Assembly: GCF_001543285.1 (NCBI RefSeq)
Contig: NZ_CP014164.1
Location: 1,302,001-1,366,000 of the forward strand
From: Aerococcus viridans
GTDB lineage: Bacteria; Bacillota; Bacilli; Lactobacillales; Aerococcaceae
Direction: 5' to 3'
DNA length: 64,000 bases
Part shown: positions 38,233-59,165 of the stretch, piece by piece
How the letters are laid out: every line of letters starts with the position of its first letter
How positions within the stretch are numbered: the first letter of the stretch is position 1
Notes under the pieces: generated by a model
Database searches by the model: none
What the model was told of the DNA's origin: nothing
What the model saw: the letters and a program-made list of their open reading frames with translations, nothing else
Translations under genes and position numbers: made by a program

Positions 38233-39400
38233 TGATAGCACGATAATCCATACGAATAACGATACAGACGCCATCAAGGTGGCCGTACCGGGGAAATTAT
38301 TCCTTGCGGGCGAATATGCAGTGGTGAGTTCTGGCCAAGCTGCCTTATTAACGACTGTTGACGCCTTCTTACACCTCACTTTAGAGGTAAATTCTGGGCA
38401 AAATGGCTACTTAATCACCAACCAGGCTGACCATCCAATTGCTTGGACCTACGACGTCAATGGACAAGTCGTTTCTAACGACCCAGAAGCTGGAGAATTC
38501 CCACTAATTTGGCAAGCCTTGCAAACTGTGACGGCATATGCGGAAGCAACCGGCATGAAATCGGCAGCGACACCAGATTACTTTGATTTGAAAATTCAGT
38601 CTGACTTGGACGCGGCTGACGGGACTAAATATGGTTTAGGATCATCTGGTGCCATCTCAGTGGCTGTCGTTTCAGCCTTATTGAAATTCTACAAATTAGA
38701 CCAGGATATTACGGAATCGCAGTGGGTCTACCGGGTCTTTAAACTGGTCGCAATTACCCAAGCGCAATTGGGTATGGTAGGATCACTTGGAGATGTCGCA
38801 GCCAGCACCCAAACTGGTGTCATCTACTACCAAAACTTTGACCGGGAATGGTTTGACCAACAAGCCAAGTCAACTGGACAAGAAATCCATGCTTTAATCG
38901 AAGAATTTTGGCCCGAGTTGATGATTGAACAATTGCCCGTTGACCCAGACTGGACTTTATCCCTAGTTTGGTCTAAAGAAAAAGCATCGACTGAAGACTT
39001 ATTAAAAATGGTAGCCCACCATATTTCTGAACGAGAACTAGAAGAAGTCATGACCAGTTTTAAACAATTGGCCAAACGGCAAGTTTTAATGGCTAAGGCA
39101 GCCATCCAAATGAATGAATGGTCTTTATTCAAATCAGCGATTAAAGATAATTTCGACAATATTTTAACCTATACCCAAACATTGAATAAGCCTTATTTGA
39201 CCAAGTCCTTTAAGAAAGCATTGAAGTTAGTCACATCAGAAAAAACCGTCGCCAAAATTTCTGGGGCGGGAGCTGGAGACTGCGCCTACGCAATTTCTAG
39301 TCAAGCTGATGAGGCCAGAGCCATCCAAGGCTTATGGCGAGAAAACGACCTAGTCGTTCTTCCCTTCGCTTTCTGGCAAAGAAATGAACAGGAGAGATAG
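38216..39400 (+). CDS. mvaK2: Phosphomevalonate kinase
   Basis: 394 residues. GHMP kinase with VAVPGKLFLAGEYAVVSSGQ, GTKYGLGSSGAISVAVVSAL and KISGAGAGDCAYAIS. The ATG at 38216 lies seven bases after GGGAG inside the end of mvaD; the ATG two codons earlier is too close to that site. Makes mevalonate-5-diphosphate, the substrate of MvaD. Ends one base before the start of fni. Confidence 0.95.
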   Translation: MAQSYNDSTIIHTNNDTDAIKVAVPGKLFLAGEYAVVSSGQAALLTTVDAFLHLTLEVNSGQNGYLITNQADHPIAWTYDVNGQVVSNDPEAGEFPLIWQALQTVTAYAEATGMKSAATPDYFDLKIQSDLDAADGTKYGLGSSGAISVAVVSALLKFYKLDQDITESQWVYRVFKLVAITQAQLGMVGSLGDVAASTQTGVIYYQNFDREWFDQQAKSTGQEIHALIEEFWPELMIEQLPVDPDWTLSLVWSKEKASTEDLLKMVAHHISERELEEVMTSFKQLAKRQVLMAKAAIQMNEWSLFKSAIKDNFDNILTYTQTLNKPYLTKSFKKALKLVTSEKTVAKISGAGAGDCAYAISSQADEARAIQGLWRENDLVVLPFAFWQRNEQER

Positions 39401-39401
39401 T

Positions 39402-40451
39402 ATGAACCGTAAAGATGCCCACGTGCACAATGCTGAAATGCAATACCAAACAGCGCCAACCGATTTTGAATCTGTCCGCTTTGTCCACCCATCCCTGTCC
39501 CACCAAGAATTCAATAATATCGACTTGTCGACCACTTTGTTTAAGCAACAGTTTGACCGTCCTTTCTATATTAATGCTATGACTGGTGGGTCTGAATGGA
39601 CCAAAAAAATTAATGGTATGTTCGCTGAAGTGGCTCGTGAATGTCATTTACCAATGGCTTCAGGATCCGTTTCTGCAGCCTTAAAAGACCCTTCTGTAGC
39701 AGATTCTTTTACCATTATTCGTGATGTAAATCCCAATGGTTTCTTGATGGCCAATGTCGGCGCTGATAAGACCTTAGAGGATGCCAAAAGAGCAGTCGAT
39801 TTATTAGACGCTGATGCCTTACAAATTCACTTGAATACGGCTCAAGAAATTGTCATGCCTGAAGGCGACCGTGATTTCAGAAAACTAGAAGATAATATCG
39901 TCGCTATCGTTGAAAAATTAGACCGTCCTGTCATGGTCAAGGAAGTTGGCTTTGGTATGTCATACCAAACCATGCACCACCTACAAAGTCTAGGCGTCAA
40001 TACCATCGATGTCTCAGGTACTGGTGGAACGAATTTCGCTAAAATCGAAAACGCCCGCCGTGAACACCAAGAGTTCGCCTACATGGCTGACTGGGGTCAA
40101 TCAACCGTTATTTCATTATTAGAGGCACAACCTTTGATGAGCCAGACGGCCATCGTTGCTTCTGGTGGGATTAAAGACCCCATGCAAATGATGAAGGCCC
40201 TTGCCCTAGGCGCATCTGCCGTTGGTATGTCAGGTCAATTCCTGCATTCGGTCCTTGGTGAAGGCGTAGACGCTACGATTGAAATGGTTAAGTCTTACGA
40301 CGAACAATTGCGCTTGTTGATGATGGTATTGGACTGCCAAAACCTGAACGAACTGCGTGACACAGACTTAATGATTACCGGCAAACCTGCCGAATGGTCA
40401 AGACTCCGCCGAATCAATATCGAATACTTCGCCTCAAGAAGCCAGAATTAA
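39402..40451 (+). CDS. fni: Isopentenyl-diphosphate delta-isomerase, type 2 (FMN-dependent)
   Basis: 349 residues. Type-2 signature: RKDAHVHNAEMQYQ, FYINAMTGGSEWTKKIN, MASGSVSAALKDP, VMVKEVGFGMS, IDVSGTGGTNFAKIE and IVASGGIKDPMQMMKALALG (FMN phosphate loop). Interconverts IPP and DMAPP, completing the mevalonate route. The ATG at 39402 follows AGGAGA. Unrelated to the zinc-dependent type 1 enzyme. Confidence 0.96.
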   Translation: MNRKDAHVHNAEMQYQTAPTDFESVRFVHPSLSHQEFNNIDLSTTLFKQQFDRPFYINAMTGGSEWTKKINGMFAEVARECHLPMASGSVSAALKDPSVADSFTIIRDVNPNGFLMANVGADKTLEDAKRAVDLLDADALQIHLNTAQEIVMPEGDRDFRKLEDNIVAIVEKLDRPVMVKEVGFGMSYQTMHHLQSLGVNTIDVSGTGGTNFAKIENARREHQEFAYMADWGQSTVISLLEAQPLMSQTAIVASGGIKDPMQMMKALALGASAVGMSGQFLHSVLGEGVDATIEMVKSYDEQLRLLMMVLDCQNLNELRDTDLMITGKPAEWSRLRRINIEYFASRSQN

Positions 40452-40466
40452 GATAAGGATGTGAAA

Positions 40467-40556
40467 AATGTCGTTTAGACTCGTAACAGTGGAAGAAATA
40501 AATGTAGTGATGGTACATCACGCAACTTATTTCTGAAGTGGCACGAGTCTGACATT
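40467..40556 (+). repeat. Single copy of the structured repeat found in tandem at 58.7 kb
   Basis: Nested stems AATGTC/GACATT, AGACTCGT/ACGAGTCT, AGAAATAA/TTATTTCT and GTGATG/CATCAC, with the family-conserved CAGTGGAAG on the 5' side and CTGAAGTGG on the 3' side and GCAA in the inner loop. Same fold and conserved bases as the copies at 58679-59024, but different stem sequences and no GGGT/ACCC closing stem. Located 16 bases behind fni. Confidence 0.8.
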
Positions 40557-40632
40557 TTGAGCTCGACTACAAGGTGCGAGAGCCCCTTTATAAAAATGCG
40601 ATACAAATATCACTTCAATTTAAATAATCACC

Positions 40633-58593: not shown

Positions 58594-58678
58594 TTAGAAT
58601 CCTCCTAGAATTTTATACATATCTATATTTTAGCACAGATTTGACGATAACTCACATAATACAACTAACAAATTGTAA

Positions 58679-58787
58679 GGGTGCGAGCTTTGGCGCTCAG
58701 GCAGGTAACACTGGAAGGAATATGCCGTAGCAAGTTTACTTGCTGCAAATATTCCTGAAGTGGAGACCGGACTGCCAAAGCGAACCC
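58679..58787 (+). repeat. Structured tandem repeat, copy A
   Basis: 109 nt. Closing stem GGGT/ACCC; stem 1 GCTTTGGC/GCCAAAGC; stem 2 GGCAG/CTGCC; stem 3 CACT/AGTG inside conserved CACTGGAAG and CTGAAGTGG; stem 4 AGGAATAT/ATATTCCT; inner hairpin AGCAAG-TTTA-CTTGCT separated from stem 4 by the loop GCCGT/GCAA. Lies 85 bases upstream of the pepV start. Confidence 0.85.
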
Positions 58788-58796
58788 AACTAAAAA

Positions 58797-58906
58797 GGGT
58801 GTGAGCGTCGACGCCGAGAAAGGAACCGTTGGAAGATGAAAGCAGTAGATGATACAGTCAGCTACAACTTCATCTGAAACGCAGTTGTTTCTGGAGACTC
58901 GAACCC
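58797..58906 (+). repeat. Structured tandem repeat, copy B
   Basis: 110 nt, 118 bases after copy A, with the same linker (ACTAAAAA). Stem 3 is CGTT/AACG here instead of CACT/AGTG, a compensated change; stem 2 is AGAAA/TTTCT with AAC/GTT; stem 4 is AGATGAA/TTCATCT, with GTAG/CTAC inside. TTGGAAG and CTGAAAC correspond to the conserved boxes of copies A and C. Confidence 0.8.
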
Positions 58907-58915
58907 GACTAAAAA

Positions 58916-59024
58916 GGGTGCGCGCTAGATTGCTCAGCTCAACAACACTGGAAGAATAGTGTCGTATCACACAAAGTGTGATGCAAACTATTTTGAAGTG
59001 GACTTGAGCTGATCTAGTGAACCC
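58916..59024 (+). repeat. Structured tandem repeat, copy C
   Basis: 109 nt, 119 bases after copy B. GGGT/ACCC; stem 1 CGCTAGAT/ATCTAGTG (one G-U); stem 2 CAGCTCAA/TTGAGCTG; CACTGGAAG and TGAAGTGGA boxes; stem 4 AGAATAGT/ACTATTTT (one G-U); hairpin ATCACAC/GTGTGAT behind the loop GTCGT/GCAA. The two G-U pairs would be A-C mismatches on the other strand, which supports the plus strand as the folded RNA. Confidence 0.85.
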
Positions 59025-59046
59025 GACGATAGTACAAAGTTAAAAA

Positions 59047-59165
59047 GGTATTGAGTTTATAGACTGCTTGTAGTTAGCCTTCTGCTAAAAAATAATTCGG
59101 CAAGTTTCGATAGTTAAGTGTAGGCACTTTTTGAAGTCAGATATATGCAGACAAGAACTCACCCC
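59047..59165 (+). repeat. Probable degenerate fourth copy of the structured repeat
   Basis: 119 nt at nearly the same spacing, with GGT/ACC and TGAGTT/AACTCA outer pairing, CTGC/GCAG further in, and TTTTGAAGT near the place of the 3' box. The inner stems do not pair well, so it is decayed or only loosely related. Confidence 0.4.

Follow-up and report, generated by a model that had tools for sequence, protein, structure and literature searches.

The gap between pepV and rsuA in the stretch of Aerococcus DNA analysed here (64,000 nucleotides, hereafter the window) is filled by head-to-tail sequences of similar length whose stems differ from copy to copy while their loops stay alike. An earlier note, made from the letters alone, had taken them for three tandem structured repeats and a decayed fourth, that is, for a selected RNA of no known family read from the plus strand. 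One may therefore ask whether the array is such an RNA, and, if related copies lie elsewhere, which process places them and which process preserves their fold.

The array in the pepV-rsuA gap and its fold

Copies were scored with two covariance models: R1, built from the three array copies and one further copy of the window, and R2, built from 36 copies of the genome, 7 of the 43 having been omitted as decayed. The relevant features of the window are:

58676-58793, plus strand: copy A, of the subfamily with GCTTTGGC/GCCAAAGC; R2 116.5 bits; fold z -6.3
58794-58912, plus strand: copy B, of the subfamily with tandem G-A in stem 1; R2 104 bits; fold z -2.0
58913-59030, plus strand: copy C; R2 107.5 bits; fold z -7.3; its orthologue in genome G018 differs at 3 of 118 sites
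40454-40570, plus strand: single copy; R1 91.5 bits, R2 82.9 bits; fold z -4.9
59040-59165, no strand: the supposed decayed fourth copy, not a member of the family

Copies A and C and the single copy fold much more strongly than shuffled sequences, while the fold of copy B is weaker, with 9 of 200 shuffles equally good. Among these four copies a kept pair with both sides altered is seen at 24 of the 38 predicted pairs, and such compensated changes recur among the 36 copies of the genome. The three tandem copies of the earlier note are thus borne out, as are the stems that it quoted from them, but its fourth copy is not: shuffled versions of 59040-59175 fold as well as the stretch itself (z -0.27), and R2 with filters off gives nothing above noise in 59040-59165 (best score 2.0 bits, E 5.9). 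Part of this stretch is also present in the relative L043. The single copy is preceded by the stop codon of a 355-aa ORF (39384-40451), which NCBIfam names as IPP isomerase type 2, and is followed by a terminator-like hairpin. The array, on the other hand, is antisense to both neighbouring genes; on its strand no promoter-like site was found, nor, by the same hairpin script that was applied to all 30 arrays of the genome (see below), any terminator-like hairpin 3' of it, and it may be a silent relic. The lack of a known RNA family was confirmed, since at gathering score the window copies match none of 4227 Rfam families and the array alone gives chance matches only. The sole Rfam match in the window is a T-box leader (RF00230, 55051-55280, minus strand), which at 93.3 bits is barely over its gathering score.

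The repeat unit of about 118 nt forms a 42-pair imperfect hairpin with conserved loops. From the 5' end inwards it consists of an outer stem, in which AG-GG-(U)-G faces C-CC-(GA)-CU, an internal loop YGA/GAA that contains tandem G-A, stem 1, a bulge on one side only, which ends before AG, stems 2 and 3, an internal loop GGA/GA (UGGAA...UGAA), stem 4, an internal loop GYM/AA, and stem 5 with a short loop. The outer stem is additional to the stems of the earlier note and was decided by covariation: at two of its pairs G-C has become A-U, in 8 and in 9 of the 36 copies. A first impression of a kink-turn in the outer stem was dropped, because the covarying pairs give a 3x3 internal loop with tandem G-A.

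A statistical test of covariation, which the earlier note had proposed, supports this fold. In the 36 copies of the genome, 89.9% of 1492 cells are paired, both sides have changed in 33 of 42 pairs, compared with 25.0 in shuffles, and the score for covariation reaches 0.559 as against at most 0.128 with partners slid, the structure having been chosen on that same MAFFT alignment. Across many genera (96 matches, 90 of them distinct), 91.3% of 3577 cells are paired, compared with 55.4% in shuffles, and the score is 0.802 (at most 0.120 when slid), in an alignment that was fitted to the model and is therefore biased towards structure. Two further cross-genus counts carry little information: all 42 of 42 pairs show change on both sides, compared with 38.3 in shuffles, and 22 of 500 shuffles have at least as many pair types. 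Within eight subfamilies, which comprise 49 of 101 copies and inside which sublineages may remain, the rate of change at paired sites is half that at unpaired sites (145/4018 versus 124/1649), and 23 double changes keep the pair where about 0.6 doubles would be expected.

The same stems also tell which strand folds. In 101 copies from three Aerococcus genomes, 196 stem cells hold G-U and 61 hold A-C, although one pair that is mostly U-G supplies 47 of the former; single changes within the eight subfamilies gave 34 G-U and 9 A-C, and across genera the counts were 155 and 79. Since G-U exceeds A-C, the plus strand of the repeat unit is the folding strand, as had been argued from copy C. The simple reading is that the folded molecule is RNA, with single-stranded DNA of the same strand as the alternative.

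A dispersed family at gene ends

That the genome is an Aerococcus agrees with its PepV, which has 97% identity to the protein of Aerococcus sp. UBA6277 and 88% to that of A. agrisoli. In its 2.2 Mb R1 finds 43 copies and R2 finds 44; the former make up 30 arrays on both strands (21 single, 5 double and 4 triple). The array of the window is real, yet what had been seen as a lone tandem array turns out to belong to a dispersed repeat with dozens of copies and mobile behaviour. The search of related genomes by covariance model, likewise proposed in the earlier note, found further copies in many genera. At E 0.001, and with the own genome counted, 35 of the family's 76 genomes contain members; of 395 genomes sampled from the order 49 have them, and of 398 sampled from the class four do, two belonging to the own genus and two to another family. 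In f2 and f8 the numbers are 10 of 18 and 5 of 29. These prevalences are lower bounds, as few candidates were scored per genome in the large searches. Copy number is uneven, with at least 136 in G037 and 88 in G039, while four congeners of the own genome, two of them only 85% complete, gave no match in the family search at E 0.001. The tandem spacing of about 118-127 nt recurs in other genomes. One clear member with the same loops was observed in each of L198 (1527-1639) and L199 (1575-1695), from 3.6-Mb genomes of another family of the class.

Searches of mobile replicons by blastn, which misses diverged copies, gave no match in phages to the window array or to the unit of genome G201 (described below), and none in plasmids to the window array or to the units of G356. 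In plasmids the G201 unit matched only CP127381.1, a record that carries rpoB, rplL and other chromosomal genes. This record, the 592-kb 'plasmid unnamed1' of A. tenax, has rpoB, rplJL, nusG and cysS aboard and resembles a piece of a chromosome. In two 50-kb stretches of it the model gave 16 matches at E 0.01, one of them partial, and 3 of the 16 start within 6 nt of, or slightly overlap, the annotated end of a CDS on the same strand, those of rplL, a sugar transferase and a metallophosphoesterase; its gene table is without RNA genes, so that missing RNA annotation there is uninformative. In viral contigs two sequence patterns had no match at all, and the three stretches that matched a third pattern are not members by the model, the two examined lying in coding DNA.

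The copies have a preferred address. By an ORF heuristic, 23 of the 30 arrays have a gene upstream in the same direction, and in 18 the stop codon of this sense gene lies at most 6 nt from the first G of the element, a limit that was chosen after the distances were seen; uniform placing within the same gaps gives an expectation of 2.6 and a maximum of 9 in 20,000 draws. In some arrays the stop codon lies inside the element, which thus provides it. A terminator-like hairpin follows within 230 nt in 17 of the 18 stop-adjacent arrays, compared with one of the 12 others, among which is the window array. Similar placement is seen elsewhere: the distance is -8 to +10 nt of the stop for 11 of 18 arrays in G016 and 10 of 20 in G018, among the best matches listed and with loci that are partly the same. 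A sense gene lies upstream at 35 of 50 loci in other genomes, and 17 of the 50 are at -9 to +20 nt, as measured from the copy itself even if it was not the first in its array; in G201 the corresponding counts are 10 of 12 and 8 of 12.

The upstream genes are functionally unrelated. They include, by model, thrS, groEL, mscL, nadE, glmM and the gene of V-ATPase subunit D, among others, and, below model cut-offs, those of a cold-shock-like and a KH-domain-like protein, the latter in the own genome. The element is found 3' of groEL in two genera (by model in both) and 3' of proS in three (one by model, two by similar C-termini). A G201 unit also lies directly 3' of yhaM, the gene of a 3'-5' exoribonuclease (L121, 1001-1121).

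Change in place and turnover of units

We compared copies of the own genome with their orthologues in G016 or G018, 24 pairs in all, some of which share loci and are therefore not independent; 21 were classed as the same copy in place and three, with more than 25 differences, as swapped for a different type. For the copies in place, divergence is 3.6% in the element (89 of 2477 sites), compared with 4.4% in the 250 nt before it, mostly coding DNA, and 9.2% in the 200 nt behind it, and several copies show 0-1 differences within loci of 89-93% identity. This low divergence could reflect either some role of the element at its site or homogenisation. Among the 45 single changes at paired columns, 29 break the pair, 13 keep it and three are at positions unpaired in both copies; 13 give G-U and 12 A-C, and the rate of change differs little between paired (58/1716) and unpaired sites (31/761). 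Three of six double changes keep the pair, where 0.6 doubles would be expected, all three in the three diverged copies that hold 54 of the 89 differences. The three swapped pairs, in contrast, contain 30 pair-keeping doubles. Compensation is thus found chiefly where one type has replaced another, in agreement with selection for propagation, the in-place sample being small and mixed. As for the claim of a selected RNA structure, it stands for the family, whose fold covaries, and may or may not hold for the window copies in particular: in G018 copies A and B are unchanged, and the few differences in copy C were given above.

Signs of movement are seen in G201, a genome that we call Carnobacterium-like because YhaM there has 88% identity to a protein of Carnobacterium sp. 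It has 12 near-identical copies, nine of them equal in score over 121 nt. Every copy carries a tail of about 50 nt that ends in a terminator hairpin, so that the whole unit measures about 174 nt. The flanks of eight G201 loci were used to search the genus, and at all four of the eight that were compared in the congener G098 a native terminator hairpin stands in place of the unit; two of these four loci were compared in further congeners too, and hold no unit there. A-rich and T-rich tracts flank both the G201 unit and the native terminator of G098. By eye, no target duplication was found at these four sites or at the Aerococcus sites compared.

The Aerococcus sites are mostly old: in close relatives the corresponding place still holds the element or a truncated form of it, and none of the sites compared was cleanly free of the element, most retaining remnants. 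Arrays also gain, lose or swap units between orthologous sites, as at 1451411 and 1342454, where one genome has one full unit and the other at least two. In the pepV-rsuA gap of a more distant pair of relatives, homology appears to stop at the first bases of the element, and at the same position in the gap of L043 there is by reading an apparent remnant to which the family model gives no match. Mini-units of about 29 nt that resemble the outer stem alone (AGGGTGCGATAG...CGAGCTCAACTTCAC) also occur in arrays; they lie between or behind full units at G000:C1 ~1451320-1451410 (minus strand), where G018 seems to have gained a full unit between them. In G018 the flanks of the thrS array are about 11.7 kb apart (C1 ~336.8-348.5 kb), reflecting either a large gain there or a loss in the own genome. 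G009 contains a separate repeat of about 30-45 nt, with more than 30 occurrences among the matches listed (e.g. C34:2124-2163), which matches the stretch behind the array at G000:C1:730264.

Readings of the family and comparison with known repeats

We consider it somewhat probable (roughly 0.56) that the family consists of non-autonomous, probably mobile repeats that dock at 3' ends and need their fold in order to spread. This reading is based on the many copies and arrays and their uneven number among genomes, on the near-identical G201 units facing terminator-only sites in G098, on arrays that differ in the number and type of their units between orthologous sites, on the adjacency to stop codons with a terminator-like hairpin behind, and on covariation whose double changes are found within subfamilies and at swapped sites, next to unrelated upstream genes. 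Insertion would take place at the 5' foot of intrinsic terminators. Since the A-tract there would start just behind the stop codon and a terminator has a direction, both the sense orientation and the place at the stop codon would follow. The fold would be that of the RNA of a read-through 3' UTR, or of the same strand as single-stranded DNA, and a factor that reads the conserved loops would recognise it, so that lineages keeping their pairs would continue to spread, while resident copies would afterwards drift, be swapped or be deleted. Against such docking and spread one may hold that no target duplication was seen by eye and no clean empty site in Aerococcus, that divergence in place is low, that in-place compensation comes from a small sample, and that 12 of 30 arrays are not next to a stop codon; moreover, insertion at terminators joins two differing observations, as G201 units carry a terminator and Aerococcus units do not. 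In a bolder and rather improbable form of the same idea, the element would be SINE-like: a machine for reverse transcription or transposition would bind the fold of the 3'-UTR transcript and write the copy back at terminators behind stop codons. If this were true, an order of bacteria would carry an RNA-level parasite of mRNA ends.

One may also consider a resident mRNA element that acts on the upstream gene, e.g. by blocking 3'-to-5' exonucleases, or as a site for processing or for an RNA chaperone. We regard this as possible but doubtful. The sense orientation, the location between stop codon and terminator-like hairpin, the better conservation of orthologous copies than of the DNA behind them, the slower change of paired sites within subfamilies and the recurrence at groEL and proS all agree with it, whereas the upstream genes are unrelated, single changes in place mostly break pairs, with G-U hardly exceeding A-C, paired and unpaired sites there change at similar rates, in some congeners no copies were found, and unit number varies at the same site. 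Furthermore, the first stem starts 0-6 nt past the stop codon, where a terminating ribosome would be expected to open it. If instead the folded strand acted as single-stranded DNA, with IS200/IS605-like or REP-type mobility and only incidental transcription, the strand-specific pairing would be expected as well, since single-stranded DNA tolerates G-T better than A-C, and the dispersed and tandem behaviour would fit; but a replication-strand mechanism would need neither the orientation that follows the genes nor the terminator-like hairpin, and the conserved G-A loops resemble motifs of RNA, so that we think this explanation unlikely. Spread without a dedicated machine, in which the shared A- and T-tracts of terminators recombine or gene-convert and carry copies along, would account for the tracts that flank the G201 unit as they do the native terminator of its congener, and for the exchange of units between orthologous arrays. 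It leaves the order-wide keeping of stems and loops unexplained, and appears very improbable.

No description of this repeat family was found in those parts of the literature that were available to us. With the structured RNAs of Rfam it shares a covariation-backed fold with conserved loops. REP sequences, the partners of the Y1 transposase RAYT, are palindromes of 20-40 nt, compared with 118 nt for the Aerococcus unit. Integron attC sites were considered for the place at stop codons and dropped, as synteny of the neighbouring genes is kept and the core motif appears to be absent from the ends; repeats of type III toxin-antitoxin systems were dropped on unit length. The closest lead, above all to the G201 unit, would be EFAR of Enterococcus faecalis, likened by architecture and not by sequence: these are reportedly modular elements, miniature in size (about 170 bp) and made of two stem-loops side by side, which are said to integrate into terminator-like stem-loops and to replace most of the target. 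The G201 unit, a 121-nt hairpin plus a terminator hairpin at sites where a congener has its native terminator, is similar. The Aerococcus unit, in contrast, is one 118-nt hairpin without a terminator, and units standing where a congener has a terminator were seen in G201 (four loci) and not in Aerococcus. EFAR is probably the same as the Efa-1 family, described, in the part of the source available, as 163 bp, intergenic and with a pair of adjacent stem-loops (PMC2267715); the accessible part of another source classes EFAR as MITEs of Enterococci (PMC3733652). In these accessible parts neither a covarying fold with conserved loops nor docking at stop codons is mentioned.

BOX elements of Streptococcus pneumoniae, as far as the available part of their description goes, are likewise small interspersed repeats with tandem middle units, a folded transcript and a frequent location at gene ends, 36 of 58 BOX-overlapping CDSs overlapping at the extreme 3' end and taking their stop from BOX (PMC3049150). 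However, they are boxA-boxB(n)-boxC composites whose terminal inverted repeats pair in duplexes, whereas in Aerococcus each unit is a full hairpin and whole units are in tandem. SPRITE and RUP of pneumococcus, and MITEs in general, in the portions of the sources at hand, are also small, non-coding, dispersed and hairpin-forming (PMC3049150, PMC2229807, PMC10969869), although, as distinct from SPRITE, the Aerococcus unit is not terminator-like. Like MITEs it is non-coding, dispersed and multi-copy (43-44 copies), but no target-site duplication was seen by eye at the G201/G098 and Aerococcus sites, and any terminal inverted repeat would be limited to the outer stem of 3-5 bp, which does covary.

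In bacteria, small interspersed repeats are commonly regarded as palindromes of DNA. A family with covarying stems, near-constant loops and a narrow address (stop codon, repeat, terminator) in many genera of one order makes it directly testable whether such repeats require a strand-specific fold to spread, and it offers studies of mRNA ends many natural 3' UTRs, some containing the element and some lacking it. It is this order-wide covarying fold, together with the place behind stop codons, that sets the Aerococcus repeat apart from the known small interspersed repeats.
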